Source: Bacteroidaceae bacterium (GTDB lineage: Bacteria; Bacteroidota; Bacteroidia; Bacteroidales; Bacteroidaceae). Taken from it: DNA of 64,000 nt. The DNA is taken from assembly GCA_017965425.1 (NCBI GenBank), contig JAGCPY010000089.1:1-64000 (forward strand), read 5' to 3'. The notes beneath the pieces were generated by a model. It was not told where the DNA came from and searched no databases. It saw only the letters and a list, made by a program, of their open reading frames with translations. A program made the position numbers and the translations under genes. Of the stretch, positions 3,548-62,747 are shown in pieces. Each line of letters begins with the position of its first letter. Positions within the stretch are counted from its first letter, which is position 1.

Positions 3548-4105
3548 TTAATCCTCGTTTTCGTCGCCGTCGTCGTCATCATCAAGGTCGAAGTCGAAAT
3601 CGCTGAAGAAGACGGGCGTGCTGGCGGCAGTGTCGGCGAAGTCGTCGAGGGCTCTGCGCTCTTTCTTCGTGGGGCGTCCGGTGCCGCGTGCTCGTCCGAC
3701 GAAACCGCTGATGCGGTTCATTTCCAGTAGCTCGTATTGTTCGGGAGAGGTGACGTTCTCGAGGATTTCCGGGATGAGCTTGGCGCCGACTCGGTGCTCG
3801 ATGGCTTGGAGGATGCGGAAACTGTAGGTGATAGGCGGCTTGCGAACGTCAATCACATCTCCTGCCTTCACCATGCGTGAGGGTTTCATCTGCGCGCCGG
3901 CGATGCTAACCTGCCCTTTCTTGCAGGCGGCAGCGGCGAGGGTGCGTGTCTTGAAAATGCGTGCGGCCCACAGCCATTTGTCCAAATGGGCCTGCCTTCC
4001 TCCCCGCTCCTCCCTTGCAGAGTGAGGAAAGGACCCTCCCCCCTGTCCCTCCCCTGTAGGGAGGGGAGTGGTTACTTTTGAATGGTTGTTATGGCTTGAG
4101 TCCAT
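3548..4105 (-). CDS. hslR: S4-domain RNA-binding protein, Hsp15-like, with element-derived N-terminus
   Basis: A 185-aa protein. Residues about 37-90 form the S4 domain (LDKWLWAARIFKTRTLAAAA, then KKGQVSIAG and VKAGDVI). This matches Hsp15/HslR, which binds the large ribosomal subunit with stalled nascent chains. The family is usually about 130 aa. The extra length comes from an N-terminal stretch containing PLPTGEGQGGGSFPHSARE, encoded by a palindromic repeat element, and an acidic tail (DFDFDLDDDDDGDENED). The start codon itself lies in the interval between the element's two arms (4032-4160). The stop of pth is 15 bp upstream on the same strand. Confidence 0.85.
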   Translation of the reverse strand: MDSSHNNHSKVTTPLPTGEGQGGGSFPHSAREERGGRQAHLDKWLWAARIFKTRTLAAAACKKGQVSIAGAQMKPSRMVKAGDVIDVRKPPITYSFRILQAIEHRVGAKLIPEILENVTSPEQYELLEMNRISGFVGRARGTGRPTKKERRALDDFADTAASTPVFFSDFDFDLDDDDDGDENED

Positions 4106-4160
4106 ATCTTAAAATGTTTTTACTCTCTTCCCTGCGAGGAAGGGGCAGAGGGGAGGGACT
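4032..4160. mobile_element. Paired palindromic (MITE-like) element 1, pth/hslR junction
   Basis: Left arm 4032-4085: GACCCTCC outer end, stem CCCTCCC/GGGAGGG at 4047-4065, inner end GTGGTTACTTTTG. Right arm 4122-4160 is inverted and ends GGGAGGGACT. Read on the minus strand, the element covers the last codons of pth (tail [12 protein letters not shown]), the junction, and the start codon and first ~20 codons of hslR. A second degenerate arm-like stretch (about 3999-4030) lies next to it. Confidence 0.75.
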
Positions 4161-4759: not shown

Positions 4760-4984
4760 GAAGACTCGGACTCTCTCTCCGTCCTCCCTAAAAGGGAAGG
4801 ACCGGTCACCTTTGCTACAAGTTTTTTTAGGAATGCAAACATTAAAGAGAGTTAAGTCGTATTTTGAAAATCAAATATTAACCTAAATGAAGAAGACGCA
4901 AAGTCCATGTTGTGTTCCTTGCGTCTTCATATCTTGTCTTGAAGGTAGTTCCTCCCCAGCTTGATGGGGAGCGGTGAGGAGGTC
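4760..4984. mobile_element. Paired palindromic element 2, rplY/pth junction
   Basis: Left arm 4760-4815 begins GAAGACTC, has a CCTCCC/GGGAAGG stem and ends GGTCACCTTTGC. Right arm 4941-4984, inverted, reads GAAGGTAGTTCCTCCCC ... GGTGAGGAGGTCT. The ~125 bp between holds the rplY terminator hairpin and an AT-rich stretch likely to be the pth promoter region. This is the widest short pair and its arms are more degenerate than most. Confidence 0.6.
4892..4928 (-). terminator. Hairpin after rplY
   Basis: GAAGACGCAA (4892-4901) pairs with TTGCGTCTTC (4919-4928) around a 17-nt loop. On the minus strand TTCATTTAGG follows. It sits 59 bp past the rplY stop and probably ends that transcript. Confidence 0.55.
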
Positions 4985-11745: not shown

Positions 11746-11827
11746 GGACGTCTGCACCCGACACCCCGAACGTGTGCACCTTCCACCATGAAGGTGCACA
11801 CGTTCTGCTTGAAACCAGCACACCATC
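11746..11827. repeat. 22-bp repeat array 2 (4 units, perfect hairpin in the middle)
   Basis: Cores at 11746, 11768, 11790 and 11812, each 16 bp with 6-bp spacers. The two central cores, GAACGTGTGCACCTTC and GAAGGTGCACACGTTC, are exact reverse complements, giving a perfect 16-bp stem with a 6-nt loop (CACCAT). The outer two are degenerate. The array starts 28 bp after the ansA stop. Confidence 0.8.
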
Positions 11828-12894: not shown

Positions 12895-13998
12895 ATGGAA
12901 AAGAAAACCTGTCTCTATGACCACCACGTGGCCCTCGGCGCTCTGATGTCGCCCTTTGGCGGATTCATCATGCCCATTCAGTACACGAACATCACCGACG
13001 AGCACAACGCCGTGCGCCAGCACTGCGGGGTCTTCGACGTCAGCCACATGGGCGAAGTGCGCATCACGGGTGCCGACGCCGAGCGCTACGTCCAGCACAT
13101 CTTCACCAACGACGTGACCGACGCACCCCTCGGGCAAATCTACTACGGCATGATGTGTTACCCCGACGGCGGCACCGTCGATGACCTGCTCGTCTATAAG
13201 ATGGGCGACAACGACTTCTTCCTTGTCATCAACGCCGCCAACATCGACAAGGATGTGGCCTGGATGCAAGAGCAAGCCCAAGGCTTCGACATCTGCCTCG
13301 ACCACCAGAGCGACTACTACGGCCAGCTTGCCGTACAGGGGCCCGAGGCAGAGGCCGTTGTCGAGGAAGTCCTCGGATTGCCCTGCAAGGAACTGAAGTT
13401 CTACACGGCCAAGACGCTGGAGGTTGCCGAAGGCGACGAGGGCGAAACCATCATCATCTCACGTACTGGCTACACCGGCGAGGACGGCTTTGAGATCTAC
13501 GGTTCCCACGACTTCACACAGAAGGCATGGGAAAAGCTGATGCAGAGCGGACGTTGCAAACCCTGTGGCCTCGGATGCCGCGACACCCTCCGCTTTGAAG
13601 TCGGTCTGCCCCTCTACGGCGACGAACTTAGCGCCGACATCAGTCCCGTCATGGCTGGCCTCTCAATCTTCGTCAAGCTGGATAAAGACGAGTTCATCGG
13701 CAAGGAAGCCCTCGCCAATCAGAAGGCCAACGGCGTGGCCCGGAAACTCGTGGGCATTGAGCTCGCAGACAAGGCCATTCCACGTCACGGATATGCCGTC
13801 CTCACTCCCGAGGGAGACACCGTGGGCGAAGTGACGACGGGCTACCACTGCCTCAGTGTTGACAAGAGCGTCTGCATGGCTCTCGTCAAGACAGACTACG
13901 CCAAGCTGGGAACGCCCCTCGCCGTACAGATCCGAAAGAAGACCTTCCCCGGCGTGGTCGTCAAGAAGAAGTTCTACGACAAACATTATAAGAAGTAA
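12895..13998 (+). CDS. gcvT: Glycine cleavage system T protein (aminomethyltransferase)
   Basis: Takes the aminomethyl group from GcvH and, with tetrahydrofolate, makes methylene-THF and ammonia. The 367-aa protein begins with HVALGALMSPFGGFIMPIQY, then GVFDVSHMGEVRITG, and has the folate-site Asp region TNDVTDAPLGQIYYGMM, ISRTGYTGEDGFEIY and the C-terminal barrel (GEVTTGYHCLSVDKSVCMAL). Length is normal. It heads the gcvT-gcvH-gcvPA-gcvPB-lpdA set, 91 bp after lplA. A palindromic element starts at its stop codon. Confidence 0.95.
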   Translation: MEKKTCLYDHHVALGALMSPFGGFIMPIQYTNITDEHNAVRQHCGVFDVSHMGEVRITGADAERYVQHIFTNDVTDAPLGQIYYGMMCYPDGGTVDDLLVYKMGDNDFFLVINAANIDKDVAWMQEQAQGFDICLDHQSDYYGQLAVQGPEAEAVVEEVLGLPCKELKFYTAKTLEVAEGDEGETIIISRTGYTGEDGFEIYGSHDFTQKAWEKLMQSGRCKPCGLGCRDTLRFEVGLPLYGDELSADISPVMAGLSIFVKLDKDEFIGKEALANQKANGVARKLVGIELADKAIPRHGYAVLTPEGDTVGEVTTGYHCLSVDKSVCMALVKTDYAKLGTPLAVQIRKKTFPGVVVKKKFYDKHYKK

Positions 13999-14144
13999 AA
14001 GACCAGCCCCGACTCCTCTCAGGGGAGAGAGGTGTATATACTTGAAAACATATCATTTATTAACTCACTTTTAACATGCAAGTCTTATCTCCCAAAGGTA
14101 ATCACTCCCCTCTCATTTCGGAGAGGGGGTGGGGGTGAGGCTTC
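13999..14144. mobile_element. Paired palindromic element 3, gcvT/gcvH junction
   Basis: Left arm 13999-14041 (AAGACCAGCCCC, stem CTCCTCTC/GAGAGAGG) begins at the gcvT stop. The inverted right arm 14094-14144 (AAAGGTAATCACTCCCCTC ... GGGGTGAGGCTTC) ends 15 bp before the gcvH start. The ~50 bp between is AT-rich. Here the element stays outside both coding regions. Confidence 0.75.
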
Positions 14145-14540: not shown

Positions 14541-14687
14541 GAAGACCCACCCCTCACCCTCCTTGTGAGGGAGGGGGTGGTCGCCTTTCAAGAATGGTTA
14601 GTCAATCTATCATACAATGAACGAAAAGCAAACAACAAAAGCTACGGCTCCCCTCCCGGGAAAGGAAGGGCAGGGGAGTGGGGCTTT
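14541..14687. mobile_element. Paired palindromic element 4, gcvH/gcvPA junction
   Basis: Left arm 14541-14598 begins GAAGACCCACCCC three bases after the gcvH stop, with stem CCCTCC TTGT GAGGGAGGG and inner end CGCCTTTCAAGAATGGT. The inverted right arm 14644-14687 (CTCCCCTCCCGGG ... GGGGCTTTT) is read in frame as the N-terminus of gcvPA. The gcvPA ATG (14617) lies in the interval between the arms. Confidence 0.8.
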
Positions 14688-17701: not shown

Positions 17702-17869
17702 GAAGACCCAGCCCCCGCCCTCCTTGTGAGGGAGGGGGACGCACTCCTTACCCTCCCTGTGAAGGAGGGGGCTGTTTACCTTACAAGAATAGTGTGTTAT
17801 TATGAATACAAATAGCCAAACTCATCCTACTCCCCTCTCTTCAGGGGAGGGGCACACGGACGGGGCTTC
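17702..17869. mobile_element. Paired palindromic element 5, gcvPB/lpdA junction
   Basis: The left side (17702-17791) begins GAAGACCCAGCCCCC and contains two successive stems (around 17716-17738 and 17749-17772) before the inner end GTTTACCTTACAAGAAT. The inverted right arm (17826-17869, CCTACTCCCCTC ... GGGGCTTC) is read in frame in lpdA. The lpdA ATG (17802) lies between the arms. The doubled left arm is unique in this window. Confidence 0.78.
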
Positions 17870-19147: not shown

Positions 19148-19251
19148 ACACAAGTACACCTTCCAGTCAGAACATATTGACATTCTGGCTGGAAGGTGTA
19201 CGCGTTCGGACGGTAAGGTGCACACGTTCGGAGGTGAACGTGCAGGGTGGG
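19148..19251. repeat. 22-bp repeat array 3 (5 units)
   Basis: Cores begin at 19148, 19170, 19192, 19214 and 19236, exactly 22 bp apart, with 6-bp spacers (CAGTCA, TGGCTG, GGACGG, GGAGGT). Bases 19154-19171 and 19182-19199 are reverse complements over 18 bp with one mismatch. The array fills the whole space between the convergent lpdA and pepT genes and may act as a two-way terminator. Confidence 0.8.
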
Positions 19252-19254
19252 GGG

Positions 19255-20535
19255 CTATTCCGCCACGATCTTGCAGATGTTGACGACGGTGTGCATGGCC
19301 TTCTCCATAGATTGTATGGGCACGAATTCGTGGCGCCCGTGGAAGTTGAGGCCTCCGGCGAAGATGTTGGGGCAAGGCAGTCCTTTGAAGGAGAGCTGTG
19401 CGCCGTCTGTTCCTCCTCGGATGGCTTTGACCACGCACTTCATGCCTGCCTGCTCGATGGCCCGACGTGCGATGTCGATGATGTGTTCCTTGCCTTCGAG
19501 TTGCTGGCGCATGTTATAGTATTGGTCGCGTATGTCGGCCTCGACGACGCCTTTGCCATAGCGCTCCTCGAACACAGCCACGAGATCCGACACGAAGTCC
19601 TTGCGCTCTTCGAAGCGCTGGCGGTCGTGGTCGCGTATGATGTAGGAGAGGGTGGCTTCTTCGACGGTGGCCCGAATGCCGGTGAGGTGATAGAATCCCT
19701 CGTAGCCCTCGGTGCGCTCGGGTACTTCGTCCTTGGGCATGGCCTCTGCAAATTCCGTGGCGATGAGGCAGGCGTTGCGCATCTTGCCTTTGGCGTAGCC
19801 GGGATGGACGTTCCGTCCTCGGACGTGGATGGTGGCGCTGGCGGCGTTGAAGTTCTCATACTCCAGTTCGCCGACCTCTGAGCCGTCCATGGTGTAGGCC
19901 CATTCGGCACCGAACTTCTCGACGTCGAAGAGGTGGGCACCGGCTCCGATTTCCTCGTCGGGGTTAAAGGCAATGCGGATGCGTCCGTGCGGGATGTCGG
20001 GGTGTTCCATGAGGAAAGCCATTGCCTCGACAATCTCTGCGATGCCCGCCTTGTCGTCGGCACCGAGCAGGGTGTGACCGTCGGTGACGATGAGGTCTTC
20101 GCCTACGTGTTCCAGCATTTCGGGGAACAACTTCGGCGACGTCACGATGCCCTCTTCAGCATCGAGGACGATGTCTCCGCCGTCGTAGTTTCTGACGATG
20201 CGGGGATGGATGTCAGCTCCGGAGCAGTCGGGGCTGGTGTCGTAATGGGCAATGAATCCGACCGTGGGCACGTCGGCGGGGACGTTGGAGGGTAGGGTGG
20301 CATAGATGTAGCCCTGTTCGTCCATCGTCACGTCTTCGAGTCCCATCTCTTCGAGGGAGTCGGCCAGGTGACGGGCAAAGACCAGCTGTTTCGGGGTGCT
20401 GGGACAGCCCTCAGCCTCTTCGGAGGATTGGGTGTCGTAGCTAACGTAATCGAGGAAGCGGGCGATGAGATAAGACCCACCCCCTTCCCTCCCTTGTAGA
20501 GAGGGAGCTATTTCTTGTGCTGGATGATATTCCAT
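19255..20535 (-). CDS. pepT: Peptidase T (tripeptide aminopeptidase)
   Basis: A zinc M20 peptidase that removes N-terminal residues from tripeptides. The 426-aa protein carries the metal ligands in [11 protein letters not shown] and [20 protein letters not shown], the catalytic Glu in [14 protein letters not shown], and the C-terminal His in [19 protein letters not shown]. The normal family start (ERFL-x-YV-x-DTQS) corresponds to [16 protein letters not shown]; before it lies an element-encoded stretch ([18 protein letters not shown]). ATG 20535 is preferred to a GTG at 20571 that lies in the palindromic arm. It is downstream of the ROK kinase on the same strand. Confidence 0.93.
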
Positions 20536-20606
20536 ATTGTATGTATAACAATTCTTGAAAGGTAATCTCACCTTCCCTGCAAGGGAGGGCGGGGGGAGGG
20601 TCTTTT
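20471..20606. mobile_element. Paired palindromic element 6, glk/pepT junction
   Basis: Left arm 20471-20515 (TAAGACCCACCCCC, stem CCCTCCCTTGTAGAGAGGGAG) lies in the 5' coding part of pepT. Inverted right arm 20551-20606 (ATTCTTGAAAGGTAATCTC ... GGGGGGAGGGTCTT) touches the glk stop codon. The pepT start codon is between them. The internal end CTTGAAAGGTAAT matches the reverse complement of ATTACCTTTCAAG-like ends in other copies. Confidence 0.8.
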
Positions 20607-26177: not shown

Positions 26178-27959
26178 ATGACAGAAAACTGGAATCGCAT
26201 CATCAACTGGCGCACGGCGCACATCAAGGACCGGCAGTTCATGCTGCTGTTGGCCTTCGTGATTGGTGTGCTCACGGCACTGGCAGGCCTGTTGCTGAAG
26301 TGGCTCATCCATCAGATCGAGTACATGCTGACGAACCACTTCTCCATCACGGGTGCCAACTGGCTCTACTTGGTCTATCCCGTGGTGGGCATCCTGCTGA
26401 CGGGTCTCTTCGTGCGCCACGTGGTGCGCGACGATATCGGCCACGGCATCACGAAGATTCTGTATGCCATCGCCCGCAAGAAGAGTTACATCCGGACGCA
26501 CAACACGTGGTCGTCGGTGGTGGCATCGGGCATCACCATCGGTTTCGGCGGCAGCGTGGGTGCCGAGGCGCCTATCGTGTTGACGGGCAGCGCCATCGGC
26601 TCGAACCTTGGGCAGCTGTTCCGTCTGGACAGCAAGAAGATGATGCTGCTCGTGGGCTGTGGAGCGGCAGGTGCCGTCTCGGGAATCTTCAAGGCGCCGA
26701 TAGCAGGGCTGGTGTTCACGCTGGAGGTGCTGATGATCGACTTCACGCTGGGCAGCCTGCTTCCCCTGCTGGTGTCCTGTGTGACAGCCGCCGCCGTCAC
26801 TTTCGCCATTTCGGGTACGGATAACCTCTTTGAGTTTCACCTTACCAACGCTTTCGCCATCTCGCGCGTACCCGCGTATATATTATTAGGTATCTTCTGC
26901 GGTCTCGTCTCGCTCTACTTCACCCGTGTCATGAACTGGCTCGAAGACCAGTTCCGCCGATTAGGTTCTCCGTGGAAACGTTTCCTCGTGGCCAGCCCCA
27001 TTCTCAGCGTGCTCATCTTCCTCTTCCCGTCGCTCTACGGCGAAGGCTACGGCATGATCCGCCTGCTGCTGAATGGCCAGGGACAGGCCGACTGGAACCA
27101 AGTGCTGGAAGGCTCCTTCTTCTATGCGACCCCCCATCTGCTGCTCCTCTATTTGGCTGGCATCATCGTCTTCAAGGTGTTTGCCACGACGGCCACCAAC
27201 AGCGGGGGTGGTTGCGGCGGTACGTTTGCGCCGAGTCTGTTCCTCGGCTGTGTGTCGGGCTTCCTGTTCGCTTCTTTGTGGAACCTGTTGCCGGGCAATA
27301 CCATCATCGTGCCAGAGAATAACTTTTCTCTTCTTGGCATGGCAGGCCTGATGAGCGGCGTCATGCACGCTCCGCTGACGGGCATCTTCCTGATTGCCGA
27401 GCTGACGGGCGGCTATGGCTTGTTCCTGCCGCTGATGATAGTCGCCGTCTGTGCCTACTTGACCATCATCATCTTCGAGCCTCACAGCATCTACACCATG
27501 CGCCTGGCGCGCAAGGGCGAGCTTGTCACCCATAACCGCGACAAGGCCATTCTCACTTTGATGTCGATGGACTCCGTCATCGAGCGCTATGAAGAACATT
27601 TGCATCCCGACGACGACCTCGGCGAGATTGTGCGTCAGGTGGCAGGCTCGAACCGCGATGTCTTCCCCGTCGTCGATGAGGCAGGCAAGCTTCTTGGCGT
27701 GCTCATCCTCGACCGTGTGCGCCATGTCATGTTCCGCACCGAGCTTTATCATCGCCTGCATGTCAGTGACCTCATGTCACAATATGCTGCACGTCTGACC
27801 ACCAACGATTCGATGGATGTTGTCATGTCAACTTTCGACCGTACCCAGGCGTGGACGCTGCCCGTCGTCGATGCCGATGGCATCTTCATGGGCTTCATCC
27901 GTCGCAGCCACGTCACAGCATTGTATCGGACCATGATGGCGGACTTGAGTGATGAATAG
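26178..27959 (+). CDS. ClC-family chloride channel/antiporter with CBS domains
   Basis: A 593-aa membrane protein: ~11 hydrophobic helices in residues 20-430, then two CBS domains (~450-580, with SNRDVFPVVDEAGKLLGVLI and TLPVVDADGIFMGFIRRSHV). The ClC pore signature is seen in GFGGSVGAEAPIVLTGSAIG (equivalent of G(K/R)EGP), GCGAAGAVSGIFKAPIAGLV and GGGCGGTFAPSLFLG. The gating Glu of GKEGP-type antiporters is shifted here (GAEAP), so whether it is a channel or a Cl-/H+ exchanger is open. CBS domains often sense adenine nucleotides. Its stop touches palindromic element 7. Confidence 0.88.
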   Translation: MTENWNRIINWRTAHIKDRQFMLLLAFVIGVLTALAGLLLKWLIHQIEYMLTNHFSITGANWLYLVYPVVGILLTGLFVRHVVRDDIGHGITKILYAIARKKSYIRTHNTWSSVVASGITIGFGGSVGAEAPIVLTGSAIGSNLGQLFRLDSKKMMLLVGCGAAGAVSGIFKAPIAGLVFTLEVLMIDFTLGSLLPLLVSCVTAAAVTFAISGTDNLFEFHLTNAFAISRVPAYILLGIFCGLVSLYFTRVMNWLEDQFRRLGSPWKRFLVASPILSVLIFLFPSLYGEGYGMIRLLLNGQGQADWNQVLEGSFFYATPHLLLLYLAGIIVFKVFATTATNSGGGCGGTFAPSLFLGCVSGFLFASLWNLLPGNTIIVPENNFSLLGMAGLMSGVMHAPLTGIFLIAELTGGYGLFLPLMIVAVCAYLTIIIFEPHSIYTMRLARKGELVTHNRDKAILTLMSMDSVIERYEEHLHPDDDLGEIVRQVAGSNRDVFPVVDEAGKLLGVLILDRVRHVMFRTELYHRLHVSDLMSQYAARLTTNDSMDVVMSTFDRTQAWTLPVVDADGIFMGFIRRSHVTALYRTMMADLSDE

Positions 27960-28462
27960 GAAGACCCACCCCCCTGCCCCTCCCTTGTAGGGAAGGGAGT
28001 GGATACCTTTGCAGATGGAACAGAAAACGGCTTCATATAAAACTTCCTCGCCCGATAGGTATCTCTTGCTTCGGGCCTATGCCAGAGAGAATCGGAAGAA
28101 CGCGACGATGGCAGAGGAGTATCTGTGGGAGCAGCTGAGGGGTGGTTCTTTGGGTGTTGATTTCTTGCGGCAACATATCGTAGGTGACTATATCGCAGAT
28201 TTCGCTTCGCGGCATGGCGGGCTGATCATTGAGGTGGATGGAGGCTACCATGCGGAACGTCAGCAGCAGGAGGACGATGCCGTCAGGGAACAGGCTCTGG
28301 AGCAGATGGGCTTCCATGTCATGCGTTTCACCAACGAAGAAGTCCTATACGACATCAACAATGTTTTACAGCAAATAGATAGTTATTTCAATGAATAAGC
28401 ACACATCCAGTCAAATACATCTTACTCCCCTCCCTGCAAGGGAGGGGCAGGGGGGAGGGTCT
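27960..28462. mobile_element. Paired palindromic element 7 enclosing a DUF559 gene (putative full-length form)
   Basis: Left arm 27960-28012 begins GAAGACCCACCCCCC right after the clc stop (TAG), has stem CCCTCCCTTGTAGGGAAGGG and inner end GTGGATACCTTTGC. The inverted right arm 28421-28462 (CTTACTCCCCTCCCTGC ... GGGGGGAGGGTCT) lies in the first codons of fmt. Between the arms is a complete DUF559 reading frame starting 3 bp after the left arm. All other pairs have only ~30-125 bp between arms. The layout is that of an autonomous unit with its shortened derivatives, though DUF559 has no shown role in transposition. Confidence 0.7.
28015..28398 (+). CDS. DUF559 (Vsr-like endonuclease fold) protein inside element 7
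   Basis: A 127-aa protein of the DUF559 family, related to Vsr/PD-(D/E)xK-type nucleases. It has the family start LLLRAYARENRKNATMAEEY with LWEQLRGG, then FLRQHIVGDYIADFASRHGG and LIIEVDGGYHAERQQQEDDA (putative metal-site E-x-D and His), and GFHVMRFTNEEVL. Key residues are intact. ATG 28015 is chosen; a TTG at 28009 is possible. It sits between the two inverted arms and its end overlaps fmt by 8 nt. Catalysis has been proposed for this family from fold only; a role in moving the palindromic elements is my inference. Confidence 0.82.
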   Translation: MEQKTASYKTSSPDRYLLLRAYARENRKNATMAEEYLWEQLRGGSLGVDFLRQHIVGDYIADFASRHGGLIIEVDGGYHAERQQQEDDAVREQALEQMGFHVMRFTNEEVLYDINNVLQQIDSYFNE

Positions 28463-29506
28463 GCCTCACTCCGTATCGTCTTCATGGGCACGCCTGACTT
28501 CGCCGTCGCCTCCCTTCGCAAGCTGGTAGAGAACCATTGTAACGTCGTGGCCGTCGTCACGATGCCCGATAAACCCGTAGGCCGACACCACGACACGCTG
28601 CAGGCCTCGCCCGTGAAGCAGTATGCCGTCAGCCAGGGCATCCCCGTCTTGCAACCAGAACGGCTGAAGGATGAGGCTTTTCTAGAAGAACTGCGCAGCT
28701 ACCGTGCCGACCTTCAGGTTGTTGTTGCCTTCCGTATGTTGCCCGAAGTCGTCTGGGCCATGCCCCCTCTCGGAACTTTCAACCTCCACGCTGCCCTTTT
28801 GCCACAGTACCGTGGAGCGGCACCCATCAACTGGGCTGTCATCAACGGTGAGACCGAGACGGGCATCACCACCTTCTTCCTCGACCACGACATCGACACG
28901 GGGCGCATCATTCACCGTGTGCCCTCGCCCATTGCCGACACCGACACCGTCGGCGATGTTCATGACCGCTTGATGGAACTCGGTGCCGACCTCGTCCTCC
29001 GCACCGTGAAGGATATTGCCGCAGGCACCGCCAACCCCGTGGACCAGGACACTGTGCTCGGCGGTTCTCCCGCCGAGTCCCTCAATCCCGCTCCCAAGCT
29101 TACCCGCGACAACACCCAGATTCGCTGGCATGAGCACACGGTCAAGTCTGCCTATGACTTCATCCGTGGACTCTCGCCATACCCGGGAGCATGGACCACC
29201 TTGTGCACAGCCGACGGCAAGGAGACACAGCTGAAAGTGTTTGGAAGCCTCACCACCGCCCCCTCTCCGGACGGAGAGGGGAGTAGATACTCTCAAGGAC
29301 AGGAAGCCAACAACGAACAAACTGCACAAGTAATCACTCCCCTCGCCATTCAGAGAGGGGTTGGGGGTGAGGCTTCCCTCCTCGTTCCCCTCCGCGACGG
29401 CGACCTTCGTCTCACCGACCTCCAACTGGCGGGAAAACGGCGTATGCCCGTCCAAGAATTCCTCCGTGGTGCCCATTTAGAGGGCGCGATTCTGAAAGAA
29501 TGTTAA
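28391..29506 (+). CDS. fmt: Methionyl-tRNA formyltransferase with two element-derived inserts
   Basis: Formylates the initiator Met-tRNA with 10-formyl-THF. The catalytic domain is intact: RIVFMGTPDFAVASLRKLVE, the Asn/His/Asp set in FNLHAALLPQYRGAAPINWA and FFLDHDIDTGRIIHRV, and later FIRGLSPYPGAWTTL. At 371 aa it is ~50 longer than usual. Two extra stretches explain this: the N-terminus (HLTPLPAREGQGGGSASL, right arm of element 7) and a block in the C-terminal OB-fold domain (TTAPSPDGEGSRYSQGQEAN through IQRGVGGEAS, element 8). After it the normal end resumes (LQLAGKRRMPVQEFLRG). The frame is kept throughout, so the protein is probably functional. Confidence 0.93.
   Translation: MNKHTSSQIHLTPLPAREGQGGGSASLRIVFMGTPDFAVASLRKLVENHCNVVAVVTMPDKPVGRHHDTLQASPVKQYAVSQGIPVLQPERLKDEAFLEELRSYRADLQVVVAFRMLPEVVWAMPPLGTFNLHAALLPQYRGAAPINWAVINGETETGITTFFLDHDIDTGRIIHRVPSPIADTDTVGDVHDRLMELGADLVLRTVKDIAAGTANPVDQDTVLGGSPAESLNPAPKLTRDNTQIRWHEHTVKSAYDFIRGLSPYPGAWTTLCTADGKETQLKVFGSLTTAPSPDGEGSRYSQGQEANNEQTAQVITPLAIQRGVGGEASLLVPLRDGDLRLTDLQLAGKRRMPVQEFLRGAHLEGAILKEC
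29243..29376. mobile_element. Paired palindromic element 8, inside fmt
   Basis: Left arm 29243-29298 (GGAAGCCTCACC ... CCCTCTCCGGACGGAGAGGGG ... GTAGATACT) and inverted right arm 29328-29376 (AAGTAATCACTCCCCTC ... GGGGGTGAGGCTTCC) are both read in frame within fmt, ~30 bp apart. The outer ends are the GAAGCCTCACC type rather than GAAGACCC, as in elements 9 and the right end of 3. Confidence 0.78.
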
Positions 29507-30566: not shown

Positions 30567-30632
30567 AAACATGTTGACCGTCTCAGCAGAACGTCAACAC
30601 CTTCTTCGTTGAACGTGTACACCCTCCACTCA
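30567..30632. repeat. 22-bp repeat array 4 (3 units)
   Basis: Cores at 30567 (AAACATGTTGACCGTC), 30589 (GAACGTCAACACCTTC) and 30611 (GAACGTGTACACCCTC), 22 bp apart with spacers TCAGCA, TTCGTT and CACTCA. This is the only array that lies upstream of a same-strand gene (susC, ~320 bp away) rather than at a gene end or between divergent genes. Confidence 0.75.
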
Positions 30633-40344: not shown

Positions 40345-40426
40345 ATACGTATAGACGTGAAAGCCAAAACGTATATACCTTCCGGCTTTCACGTCTATAC
40401 GTTTACGCCTGAACGGACATTCATGA
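40345..40426. repeat. 22-bp repeat array 5 (4 units, long hairpin)
   Basis: Cores at 40345, 40367, 40389 and 40411, all 22 bp apart. Bases 40347-40365 and 40384-40402 are exact reverse complements over 19 bp (ACGTATAGACGTGAAAGCC and its complement), so the array folds into a strong stem-loop 13 bp after the protease stop. Cores here are mostly of the CGTATATACC subtype. It may end the susCD transcript. Confidence 0.78.
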
Positions 40427-45747: not shown

Positions 45748-46260
45748 ATGAACATCCGCAGACCATTCTTTTTCTTCCTCTGCCTGCTGGCAGCTCTTTC
45801 GGTCAGCGCCCAGCAGACCACACCCGCACGCGTGGAGCTACTCATCCTGGAAGGTGAGCAGGCTATCTTCAGTTCGGAAGGTACGGGCGAGAGCAAGAAG
45901 GATGCCGTGGAGAAGTCCCGCATGGCAGTCCTTCACAAGCTCCTCTATGAAGGCGTCGAGGACTATAATCAAGGCCTGCCCATCGTGAGCAGTGGACAAA
46001 CCACCAACCTCTGGCTGCGCGATTTCTTTGAAGGCAAGACCCCGGCCTACAAAGCCTTTGTCGGTGACGTTGAGCTGGTGGGCGACTTCCAGTCGATGCC
46101 TTCAGGCGAGTTCAGTTGCCAGACCAATGTGGTCGTGAATCTCGGTGCTTTGCTCCGCAACGCACGCTCACAGGGCCTCATGGAAGAGGGCGACGCTGCC
46201 CCCGCTCAGCCGCAGACACCCCCACGCCCGACAGCAAAGAAGCCGAGGAGCTTCCTTTAA
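45748..46260 (+). CDS. Small secreted protein of the caspase operon
   Basis: A 170-aa protein with signal peptide (MNIRRPFFFFLCLLAALSVSA, cut before QQ). Residues ~27-75 (LLILEGEQAIFSSEGTGESK then KDAVEKSRMAVLHKLLYEGV) resemble the LPP20/FlgT-N type domain, in which repeated E-A-x-x-x-A helices pack on strands. The C-terminal tail is Pro-rich (APAQPQTPPRPTAKKPRSFL). Family assignment is tentative. It is the last gene of the operon; its stop lies inside the first degenerate unit of array 6. Confidence 0.6.
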   Translation: MNIRRPFFFFLCLLAALSVSAQQTTPARVELLILEGEQAIFSSEGTGESKKDAVEKSRMAVLHKLLYEGVEDYNQGLPIVSSGQTTNLWLRDFFEGKTPAYKAFVGDVELVGDFQSMPSGEFSCQTNVVVNLGALLRNARSQGLMEEGDAAPAQPQTPPRPTAKKPRSFL

Positions 46261-46271
46261 CCTTCCGGCTT

Positions 46272-46353
46272 GAACGTGTGCACCTTTCGCCTTGAACGTA
46301 TATACCTGCCGTACGGAACGTATTGACCTTCCGGCCAGGAGGTATTGACCAGA
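46272..46353. repeat. 22-bp repeat array 6 (4 units)
   Basis: Cores at 46272 (GAACGTGTGCACCTTT), 46294 (GAACGTATATACCTGC), 46316 (GAACGTATTGACCTTC) and 46338 (GGAGGTATTGACCAGA), 22 bp apart; a fifth degenerate unit (46250-46265) overlaps the preceding stop codon. All units point the same way, so no long hairpin forms. This shows that the 22-bp period is kept even without pairing. Confidence 0.8.
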
Positions 46354-46990: not shown

Positions 46991-47117
46991 GGAAGCCTCA
47001 CCTCCGCCCCCTTTCCAAAGGGAGAGGCGTGGTCACTGTTGAGGCTTGATGTCATTGGATGGTTCTTGAGAGTTAAGACTACCCTCGCCCTTTGGAGAGG
47101 ACTCGGGGGTGAAGCTC
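46991..47117. mobile_element. Paired palindromic element 9, junction of the two chromate transporter genes
   Basis: Left arm 46991-47042 (GGAAGCCTCACC, stem CCCTTTCCAAAGGGAGAGG, inner end GTGGTCACTGTTG) and inverted right arm 47075-47117 (AAGACTACCCTCGCCC ... GGGGGTGAAGCTC). The right arm is read in frame as the C-terminal tail of the upstream gene (TPESSPKGEGSLNSQE), whose stop lies in the left arm. Confidence 0.72.
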
Positions 47118-55400: not shown

Positions 55401-56291
55401 TTCGCCGCCCGTGCCGGTGCTTGCACCGTTGAAGGGTTCCACCGTCGTGGGGAAGTTGTGGGTTTCGGCCTTGATGCTGATGACGCTTTCAATCTCCTTC
55501 ACACGGAAGAAATCGCTGGAGGCGTGGTCGGCAGGGGCAAACTGCTCGACGACGGGTCCTTCGGCGAAGGCCACGTTGTCCTTGTAGGCCGAGATAATCT
55601 TGTGCGGGTTCTCCTGGGTCGTCCGTTTGATCATCTGGAAGAGGCTGCTGGGCATCTCTTGTCCGTTGATGATGAAGGTGCCCCCGAAGATCTTGTGGCG
55701 GCAGTGTTCGCTGTTGATTTGCGCGAAGCCAAAGACCTCCGAGTCTGTCAGCTGCCGCCCCAGCTGTTTCTCGACATCGTGCAGGTAGTCGATCTCTTCG
55801 GGCGAGAGCGCCAGCCCTTCCTGCTCGTTGTAGGCTTCGAGGTCGCTGATGTGCTGGATGGGTGCCGGTTCGATGTTGACGGTGAAGATGTCCTGGTCGA
55901 GACGGTCGTAATGTCGCTGGAGCATGGGGTCGAAGGAGCAGCCCACCCCCTGCCCCTCCCCAGGGAGGGGGGCTTGGCTTTCCGATGGCGGCCCTAATAG
56001 TTCTCCCCTCCCTAGGGAGGGGATGGGGGTGGGCTCTTGAGGCCGATATTCCTCGATGCGCTTGATGCCGCAGAGCCCCATGTTTTGGGTAATCTCCACA
56101 GCGTTTGTGCTCCAAGGCGTGATCATCTCGCGACGGGGACCGATGAAGGCGCCGTCGAGCGTCGGAGTGTCAATAAGCGTGGCGTCGCCGAAGAGCCAGC
56201 AGAGCTTGTCGGTTTCTTCTTGAGTGAGCTGGTGGTCTGCCTGTGTGGCGACGATGCGCTGTTCAGGGGTGCGGAAAAAAAATATGGCCAT
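52479..56291 (-). CDS. purL: Phosphoribosylformylglycinamidine synthase (large single-chain form)
   Basis: Fourth step of purine synthesis: FGAR + glutamine + ATP to FGAM. The 1,270-aa chain begins MAIFFFRTPEQRIVATQADH; it contains the linker/AIRS halves (FAQINSEHCRHKIFGG, IKAETHNFPTTVEPFNGAST, GTGGEIRDRMGGGTGS, SIHDHGSAGHVNCLSELVED) and the C-terminal glutaminase (VFCGGFSNSDVLGSAKGWAG, catalytic Cys in LGICNGCQLMVEL, His-Glu pair near the end). Two stretches are extra: TPIPSLGRGELLGPPSESQA with PLPGEGQGVG (element 10) and AQTPDGKGAAAGLPPR (a lone arm). The frame upstream stays open to 56564 but crosses the promoter, so ATG 56291 is the start. Confidence 0.95.
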   Translation of the reverse strand: MAIFFFRTPEQRIVATQADHQLTQEETDKLCWLFGDATLIDTPTLDGAFIGPRREMITPWSTNAVEITQNMGLCGIKRIEEYRPQEPTPIPSLGRGELLGPPSESQAPLPGEGQGVGCSFDPMLQRHYDRLDQDIFTVNIEPAPIQHISDLEAYNEQEGLALSPEEIDYLHDVEKQLGRQLTDSEVFGFAQINSEHCRHKIFGGTFIINGQEMPSSLFQMIKRTTQENPHKIISAYKDNVAFAEGPVVEQFAPADHASSDFFRVKEIESVISIKAETHNFPTTVEPFNGASTGTGGEIRDRMGGGTGSWPIAGTAVYMTSYPERPAQTPDGKGAAAGLPPRAWLYQTPEQILIKASNGASDFGNKFGQPLIAGSVLTFEHEENGEQYGYDKVIMLAGGVGYGTKRDCLKGTPEKGNKIVVVGGDNYRIGLGGGSVSSVDTGRYSSGIELNAVQRANPEMQKRAYNLVRALCEEDVNPIVSIHDHGSAGHVNCLSELVEDCGGLIDMTKLPIGDPTLSSKEIIANESQERMGLLIQEEHLEHVRAIAERERAPLYVVGETTGDAHFAFQQGDGVRPFDLDVAQMFGHSPKTVMVDETVERRYEDVDSTLPETGTGVGAALASVLSLEAVACKDWLTNKVDRSVTGKVARQQCQGELQLPLSDCGVVALDYQGKKGIATALGHAPQAGLANPAAGSVLSVAESLTNIVWAPLAEGLDSVSLSANWMWPCRSQKGEDARLYEAVEALSQFCCDLGINVPTGKDSLSMTQKYPDGTKVIAPGTVIVSSGGEVADIRKVVSPVMADEQKSALYHIDFSFDELRLGGSAYAQAHGKVGSDVPTCTNPEYFRDAFDVVQECVRKGLLLAGHDISAGGLITTLLEMCFANTKGGIKLNLNNFASDDLTKILFAENPGIVVQVANKHEDEFKKLMDETGVAYIYIGVPSRERTLRIRKADFEETLDIDALRDIWYSTSFRLDQKQSMNGCAEQRFNNYKQQPLVWRMNRPALSPAKLLTAHEGNKAEAGLPRAAIIREKGTNGEREMAYCLYLAGFDVKDVMMTDLISGRETLDDIQMIVFCGGFSNSDVLGSAKGWAGAFLYNPKAKAALDRFYARPDTLSLGICNGCQLMVELGLLSQDGNLQGVKMMHNDSHKFESAFLGLTIPENRSVMFGSLAGSKLGIWVAHGEGKFHLPQPESAYHVVAKYNYATYPGNPNGSDYAVAGLCSADGRHLAMMPHLERAIFPWQCAYYPASRSKDEATPWLEAFVNARKWCERQ
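55276..55322. repeat. Lone, degenerate palindromic arm inside purL
   Basis: A GC-rich stretch with CAGCCCCCTTCCCGTCAGGG and GGGTTTGGGCGGGCC resembles one arm of the paired element and is read as AQTPDGKGAAAGLPPR in PurL. No matching inverted arm was found nearby. The similarity is weaker than in the ten pairs, so it may be an old remnant. Confidence 0.45.
55935..56042. mobile_element. Paired palindromic element 10, inside purL
   Basis: Left arm 55935-55984 (CAGCCCACCCCCTGCCCCTC, stem CCCCTCCCCAGGGAGGGG) and inverted right arm 55999-56042 (TTCTCCCCTCCCTAGGGAGG ... GGGGGTGGGCTCTTGAGG), only ~14 bp apart. It is read in frame as about 35 extra residues near PurL residue 90, between the N-terminal domain and the linker. 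Confidence 0.78.
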
Positions 56292-56353: not shown

Positions 56354-56406
56354 AACACGCTCCAAGTTTTTTCCGAATCTGCGCCGCTTCCTGTTCCTTC
56401 GTGCCG

Positions 56407-56488
56407 GAACGTATTGACCTTCGCGGTGGAAGGTGTGCACCTTCGCGCTGGAACGTATAGACCTTCATGGCGGAAGGCCTGTCCGTTT
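56407..56488. repeat. 22-bp repeat array 7 (4 units, between divergent promoters)
   Basis: Cores at 56407 (GAACGTATTGACCTTC), 56429 (GAAGGTGTGCACCTTC), 56451 (GAACGTATAGACCTTC) and 56473 (GAAGGCCTGTCCGTTT), 22 bp apart, with spacers GCGGTG, GCGCTG and ATGGCG; a degenerate fifth unit precedes. It lies in the 413-bp gap between the divergent purL and OMP genes, ~55 bp upstream of the purL promoter, so here a pure terminator role is unlikely. The rest of the gap (56489-56633) shows nothing else clear. Confidence 0.8.
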
Positions 56489-62643: not shown

Positions 62644-62747
62644 TAAGGTGTGCACGTTCAGCACGGAAGGGCAATACCTTCTCTGCTGAACGTGTACACT
62701 TTTTTGCAAGAAGGTGTGCACGTTCGCGAGGGAACGTGCACACTTTC
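62644..62747. repeat. 22-bp repeat array 8 (5 units)
   Basis: Cores at 62644 (TAAGGTGTGCACGTTC), 62666 (GAAGGGCAATACCTTC), 62688 (GAACGTGTACACTTTT), 62710 (GAAGGTGTGCACGTTC) and 62732 (GAACGTGCACACTTTC), exactly 22 bp apart; spacers AGCACG, TCTGCT, TTGCAA, GCGAGG. The last two cores pair over 15 of 16 bases. It fills the gap between the convergent DUF5606 and sialidase genes. This is the clearest example of the 16+6 layout. Confidence 0.85.

Follow-up and report, generated by a model that had tools for sequence, protein, structure and literature searches.

A stretch of 64,000 nucleotides from a Bacteroidaceae bacterium (here called the window) carries a small open reading frame enclosed by inverted, GC-rich palindromic arms, and similar arms recur across the same stretch. 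This raises the question of whether the gene and its arms form a mobile unit and, if so, how that unit spreads. We consider it well supported that a small mobile element, a nuclease gene flanked by mirrored hairpin arms, is present in one copy in the window. The element can sit between or inside genes with their reading frames intact and seems to leave many nuclease-free remnants.

The element at the clc/fmt junction and its relatives in the window

A Pfam search identified the open reading frame enclosed by the arms at 27960-28462 as DUF559 (PF04480, 108.5 bits with a cut-off of 20.6), as the first-pass annotation had read it. The left arm (27960..28003, plus strand) starts at the first nucleotide past the CLC stop codon, which ends at 27959. 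The nuclease gene (28015..28398, plus strand) runs from an ATG at 28015 to a stop at 28398, with a TTG at 28009 as a possible alternative start, and is related to EDxHD/Vsr nucleases. It is followed by an outward-reading leader (28391..28468, plus strand) whose ATG overlaps the DUF559 stop and whose frame crosses the right arm (28418..28462, minus strand) into fmt. Both arms were recovered with our arm model, R1, and by a complementarity test. Comparison with the fmt loci L075 and L083 showed that the start codon at the native fmt start position is gone in the window. The same leader design recurs in L005, a second DUF559 locus of the source genome, and in the window pairs that begin at 14541 and 17702.

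Ten forward-then-inverted pairs of GC-rich hairpin arms had been reported in the window, and all ten can be recognized by eye, but mutual complementarity of the outer 50-mers exceeded chance in only seven when scored against 4000 random placements in the window. Six pairs reached a p of ≤0.0005: the clc/fmt element (27960); a pair downstream of pth on the minus strand (4032..4160), with the first ATG of the next frame (4105) inside and no Pfam match for that ORF; a pair that separates two minus-strand genes, one of the ROK family and one for an M20 peptidase (20471..20606), and that contains the first ATG (20535) of the peptidase frame; a nuclease-less pair lying in frame within fmt (29243..29376); a pair lying where two minus-strand ORFs, transporter-like by eye, meet (46991..47117); and a pair embedded in a minus-strand open frame of 1375 aa (55935..56042). 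The pair between gcvH and gcvPA (14541..14687), within which the gcvPA frame has its first ATG (14617), gave a p of 0.0025. Arm-to-arm complementarity was not significant for the pair between gcvT, whose stop ends at 13998, and gcvH (13999..14144; p 0.077), for the pair between gcvPB and an lpd-like gene (17702..17869; p 0.23; first ATG of the lpd-like frame, 17802, inside), or for the pair between the L25 gene and pth, both on the minus strand (4760..4984; p 0.55; the open frame has its first ATG, 4842, within the pair, and a later ATG is also possible). These three are arm-like and lie at the same type of junction as the others, yet their two arms match each other poorly. The occupied junctions in the window include gcvT/gcvH, gcvH/gcvPA, gcvPB/lpd, clc/fmt, L25/pth, and ROK/M20, and the first ATG lies inside an element for the gcvPA, lpd, fmt, pth, and peptidase frames. 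Model R1, which was partly built from window arms, detected 12 arms in the window at an E of ≤0.01 and at least 64 genome-wide, with 150 of 1134 candidates scored.

Several other repeats were seen along the way. In L075 and L080, from other species, the fmt loop contains an A/T-rich inverted repeat or a tandem repeat, again in frame, where the window has a GC-arm pair. Short repeats like GAACGTGTACACCTTC, with a 22-bp spacing and some of them palindromic, lie at 547-624, 11746-11823, 19170-19229, and 30589-30626, and further repeats of this kind lie at 40347-40404, 46260-46350, 56405-56485, and 62644-62747. An 85-nt inverted repeat of another type (30268-30352/30431-30515) is 82% complementary, with its halves 78 nt apart.

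Inverted arms around DUF559 genes

The source genome (3.73 Mb, 96 contigs) contains four DUF559 genes (five matches, two of which are pieces of one gene), and all four are surrounded by inverted hairpin arms. In one of them, L005, the middle of the nuclease, presumed active site included, has been deleted in frame. DUF559 is present in 36 of the 121 genomes of the family. We aligned the 300 bp upstream of each gene locally with the reverse-complemented 300 bp downstream of it and used pseudo-placements on the same contigs as controls. In a first sample, which left out repeat loci (L004, L009, L012, L069, L070, L071, L073, and L074) and matches below 30 bits (L036 and L072), 51 of 67 distinct DUF559 genes exceeded the 99% quantile of 730 pseudo-placements. 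By eye, several of the genes below this threshold had weaker arms of the same kind, and arm-like peptides were visible in L011, L015, and one L046 copy. A second sample took the best 80 of 552 loci found with a profile of seven close DUF559 sequences, and it leans towards those seven; it consisted mostly of metagenome-assembled genomes with few isolates. With three repeats of earlier loci and three loci with less than 100 bp of flank left out, 69 of the 74 new loci exceeded the 99% level of 1490 pseudo-placements. L148 and L151, which are identical to each other, were both kept, and both fell under this level together with L159, L167, and L175. Such arm flanking, far above that of the pseudo-placements, supports the idea that DUF559 and its arms form a unit with nuclease-less relatives.

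Among the best 80 of the 552 loci, the top matches of the window's DUF559 family lie in Prevotellaceae and Bacteroidaceae. A draw across the phylum found DUF559 in 170 of 296 Bacteroidota genomes, and 29 of these loci were arm-tested. Ten gave a p of ≤0.009 (L189 is doubtful, as its two halves adjoin), nine gave a p of 0.018 to 0.027 (L203 is not arm-like), and ten failed. R1 arms and DUF559 tend to co-occur: by hand count of the 121 family genomes, 21 had both, 8 had arms only, 15 had DUF559 only, and 77 had neither. An element's own right arm was the best match in 65 of 120 cases against all elements and in 26 of 29 against others in the same genome; this was counted only in elements above the arm threshold, which itself favours own partners.

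Two Y1_Tnp genes are also present in the source genome (L006 and L007, on contigs C21 and C49 of G000), and an encoded transposase had been named beforehand as a possible alternative source of the arms. Under this explanation REP-like arms would be moved in trans by an HUH (RAYT-like) transposase, with DUF559 as a passenger, and the likeness of the arms to REP/REPIN hairpins would be accounted for along with the two genes themselves. However, both Y1_Tnp genes have matching inverted arms of a different sequence (the source genome alone was searched), and the gene between the arms studied here is DUF559. On these grounds we dismissed a RAYT as the mover of the DUF559 arms and regard the explanation as quite improbable.

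Placement, occupancy, and transfer

We scored the placement of 120 elements with arms by ORF length alone and without a random control; on this count, 65 come directly behind a long co-directional ORF (its stop codon within 12 bp, or overlapping by up to 40 bp), 6 follow such an ORF at a greater distance, and 14 are entered by the upstream frame, in 11 cases by way of DUF559. A longer antisense ORF occupies the upstream side of 26, and 9 have no long ORF there. On the downstream side, 87 of the 120 are entered by the open frame of a co-directional gene, whose first start codon lies inside the element in 76. Just outside the elements, a stop triplet is found within 14 bp at 86% of the left ends and at 62% of the right ends; an ATG occurs within 15 bp of 33% of right ends, compared with 15% of left ends in the same reading direction. 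An outward start codon together with a frame left open across the right arm could keep the host gene translated.

DUF559 also occurs in frame inside or at the end of genes. The hosts identified by Pfam are a DegT-type aminotransferase, a SpoIID-like protein, a MiaB-like radical SAM protein, LeuRS, HsdM, HsdR, MetH, IspG (GcpE), and Gmk, and those identified by eye are LeuB, PurL, phosphoglycerate mutase, and an acetyltransferase. Among these in-frame copies, those in DegT, HsdM, and three of four HsdR genes passed the arm test, and the MiaB copy gave a p of 0.018; the test failed for LeuRS (L185 and L188), MetH (L193), the SpoIID-like gene (L011), and one HsdR (L205). Ten DUF559-bearing proteins scanned with Pfam had no intein family among matches at an E of ≤1e-6, and their open frames contain the host domains beside DUF559. 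Post-stop placement, the outward start codon, in-frame insertion in genes, and the parallel PF05635 elements described below were not foreseen by the first-pass annotation.

Comparison among species showed that the arms are polymorphic at four orthologous sites, clc/fmt, the MiaB loop, gcvH/gcvPA, and etfA/acd, as a mobile unit had been expected to be. At clc/fmt, where 15 of 30 fmt loci were inspected, a DUF559 element is present in G000, G110, G162, and G130, a nuclease-less pair is present in G138, and no element is present in G137 or G160; the remaining loci have other spacers or other upstream genes. The MiaB loop could be read by eye in 29 of 31 loci (L243 and L251 were unreadable) and held one full element, three nuclease-less pairs, four scars or solo arms, and one other repeat, with 20 loci lacking an element; the element-free, scar, nuclease-less, and full states occur in different species. 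At etfA/acd (acd encoding an acyl-CoA dehydrogenase), 5 sites were occupied and 12 were empty, with a spacer of 11 to 35 bp, among 17 readable loci of 30 in the family, the other 13 being unreadable; of 17 extra loci chosen for carrying DUF559, 5 were unreadable. Occupied and empty etfA/acd sites were both found within genera g6 and g19. Arm pairs were seen by eye at 6 of 30 gcvH/gcvPA loci.

The clearest case of transfer is the etfA/acd element of Prevotella denticola NCTC13067 and P. veroralis DSM 19559, which is 97.2% identical over 597 bp. Identity is 0.97 to 1.00 over the nuclease and 0.90 to 0.92 over the left end, and it drops to about 0.8 within about 100 to 150 bp on the left side and about 100 bp on the right side. 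The synonymous difference (pS) is 0.015 in DUF559 versus 0.649 and 0.715 in the neighbor genes, so selection at the protein level is not the cause of the element's identity. This is a recent transfer at an orthologous site. A nuclease-less gcvH/gcvPA pair is 99.3% identical between G110 and G160, with gcvH at 89.7% and gcvP at 83.1%; both are draft genomes, so an assembly error could account for that identity.

Element and flank identities were compared in ten close same-site pairs, and an excess over the element was clear in three, mild in three, absent in three, and unjudgeable in one (L160/L177). It is present in L143/L153 and L046/L164, where it is milder than in the P. denticola/P. veroralis pair, slight in L115/L117, L131/L132, and L055/L058, and absent in L016/L022, L043/L049, and L019/L047. 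Same-site transfer thus happens, but seven of the ten pairs lack a clear excess, and same-site sharing may therefore be largely descent. The nuclease tree clusters by site (44 changes versus a shuffled mean of 83.8, 0 of 200 shuffles), a pattern that descent would also produce. In a tree of 66 nucleases, the fmt-site copies form two clades, each including one copy from another site. Related nucleases also occur with unrelated flanks: two L046 copies are 87% identical, and L041 and L077 are 80% identical. The 87% pair belongs to a group of three DUF559 genes within about 5 kb at L046 (contig C39 of G021).

If the arms were ordinary intercistronic hairpins beside vertically inherited host genes, and immobile, one would expect them between co-directional genes and would expect same-site pairs that look like descent, and both are seen. 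The number of sites argues against this, since 139 elements comprise 87 in 20 sites common to at least two loci and 52 in single sites, as do the in-frame insertions within unrelated genes, the mixture of occupied and empty sites inside genera, and the recent interspecies transfer. We find immobile hairpins very hard to credit.

The nuclease and its proposed mode of spread

An AlphaFold2 model of the window DUF559 protein, a single 129-aa domain, had a mean pLDDT of 85.8. Foldseek ranked 3hrl (NGO0050) first, followed by 3r3p (I-Bth0305I; E 4.8e-5, prob 1.00), with E. coli Vsr at rank 10 (E 0.23). A PDB profile search likewise placed 3r3p (E 3e-6) second to 3hrl, and a PADLOC HEase model matched at an E of 4e-5 alongside two other weak models. 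Profile and predicted fold thus point to homology between the DUF559 nuclease and I-Bth0305I, a known homing endonuclease. E36, D64, E75, D77, and H81 (numbered from the TTG at 28009) are invariant in 45 long copies aligned, and we take these to be catalytic-type residues from the PD-(D/E)XK pattern. The dN/dS was 0.04 to 0.20 in the 5 of 14 pairs with unsaturated dS. EDxHD enzymes are counted among the homing endonucleases in an excerpt of PMC3943268, and a Caulobacter DUF559 protein, VsrA, may cause DNA breaks according to an excerpt of PMC12907096. The first-pass suggestion of break-driven copying by a Vsr-related DUF559 enzyme is consistent with the same-site transfer and with the I-Bth0305I relationship, and cleavage itself is the part that we infer.

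Support is good for the element, the arms, and the short relatives. As to mechanism, we favor, with somewhat better than even confidence, homing-type spread of a nuclease element whose arms are REP-like and which gives rise to deletion derivatives; this is the best mechanism in view of a single clear case between named isolates, together with supporting cases and homology. The element comprises a left hairpin arm, the DUF559 gene, and a right hairpin arm over about 400 to 900 bp, mostly near 500. It sits behind an upstream stop codon or in frame within a gene, often with an outward start and an open right-arm frame. When an occupied locus meets a homologous, presumably empty one, the nuclease would cut or nick the junction, and repair would copy the element with little flanking DNA in a homing-like manner. 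Landing at a new junction would be rare, and the related copies with unrelated flanks are candidates for such events. Finally, the arms would permit loss of the middle, and the observed nuclease-less pairs, solo arms, and palindromic scars would be products of this loss.

The PF05635 genes (23S rRNA-intervening sequence protein) bear directly on this reading. They occupy gcvT/gcvH and gcvH/gcvPA in other species and were found in 10 of 12 genomes searched. Inverted arms above all 161 controls flank 15 of 16 PF05635 loci (L260, L265, L267, L268, and L314 to L325), a set of 12 fetched loci and 4 gcv loci chosen because repeats had been seen there; the arms are mostly A/T-rich or repeat-like. To our knowledge, PF05635 proteins are not nucleases. 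A nuclease is therefore unnecessary for the architecture or the sites, and the finding argues against DUF559 specificity as the sole cause of junction placement. These elements of equal architecture at the same junctions would be expected if the arms were mobile through host recombination, replication, or an unknown factor, with the ORF (DUF559 or PF05635) an accessory that aids persistence and same-site transfer resulting from ordinary homologous recombination after horizontal transfer. The genomes with R1 arms and no DUF559, and the same-site pairs without a clear excess, fit that account as well. Against it stand the invariant nuclease core, the P. denticola/P. veroralis tract, which peaks on the nuclease gene, and the relationship of the nuclease to a homing endonuclease, and we judge it unlikely, if still a serious competitor. 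We tentatively propose, at a little under even chances, an undescribed general class of translation-transparent armed elements with an outward start and interchangeable modules (DUF559 with GC-rich hairpins, or a PF05635 four-helix protein with A/T-rich repeat arms) that would copy into orthologous sites and seed palindromic repeats in Bacteroidota and perhaps also in cyanobacteria, alphaproteobacteria, and Deinococcus.

Known systems share parts of this design. EDxHD homing endonucleases such as I-Bth0305I and free-standing homing genes share the nuclease profile or fold and same-site transfer with little flank; here, no intron or intein was seen, and hairpin arms, in-frame read-through, and MITE-like relatives are present. 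A self-splicing intron or intein host is likewise missing from free-standing homing genes, and I-Bth0305I has a long DNA-binding part that the DUF559 protein lacks. REP/REPIN sequences with RAYT (REPtrons) and TIRtrons also have a gene between two inverted palindromic arms and dispersed gene-less pairs, but REPtrons enclose an HUH Y1 transposase, whereas the element here encloses a PD-(D/E)XK-type nuclease (PF04480). Most REPs, according to excerpts of PMC3733652, are located downstream of coding regions, where the neighboring ORFs are unidirectional or convergent. The GTAG/CGTC tag at the hairpin foot, a REP feature, is absent by eye from arm alignment A3, which shows GACCC/GCCTC-type outer ends. 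Classical insertion sequences with MITEs share the short gene-less relatives with the same ends, which are present here, and differ in target-site duplication, which had been suggested as a signature of mobility; the mean duplication was 1.43 versus 1.32 in shuffled data (p 0.155; 91 of 100 elements with anchored ends), and no such duplication was found.

Rickettsia palindromic elements (RPEs), compared by description, are also palindromic and inserted in frame in protein-coding genes, and they are about 150 bp long and encode a conserved peptide (excerpts of PMC10969869); here, in contrast, a nuclease-bearing form exists, at some sites that also hold short forms. The 23S rRNA intervening sequences with S23/PF05635 likewise have a small ORF in a selfish insert (excerpts of PMC4990558), but they reside in 23S rRNA, whereas the elements here lie between or inside protein-coding genes, and DUF559 and PF05635 are different Pfam families. 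A search of the open-access literature returned nothing on DUF559 with palindromic arms among the matches listed, and the excerpted text of PMC5771137, on Porphyromonas gingivalis repeats, has no bearing on such a pairing. DUF559 is common, yet its members usually go by no more than "endonuclease domain-containing." Should the family move or guard a palindromic element, many unexplained Bacteroidota repeats and odd gene fusions would have a cause, the origin of transposase-less REP-like repeats would become testable, and it would be seen how mobile DNA can persist in operons and housekeeping genes (fmt, MiaB, and glycine cleavage) without splicing.

A small cross-phylum application of the arm test covered 12 loci with 93 controls. 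The p value was 0 for Pseudanabaena, Sinorhizobium, and Deinococcus aetherius, 0.02 to 0.04 for Deinococcus NW-56, Picosynechococcus, and one phage record, and 0.06 to 0.09 for Azospirillum and Synechocystis; no arms were found at the single locus tested in each of Neisseria gonorrhoeae, E. coli, Photobacterium, and Shinella. On two Deinococcus plasmids (L218 and L222), DUF559 lies near hpaE of the 4-hydroxyphenylacetate cluster, with inverted arms at p values of 0.02 and 0.
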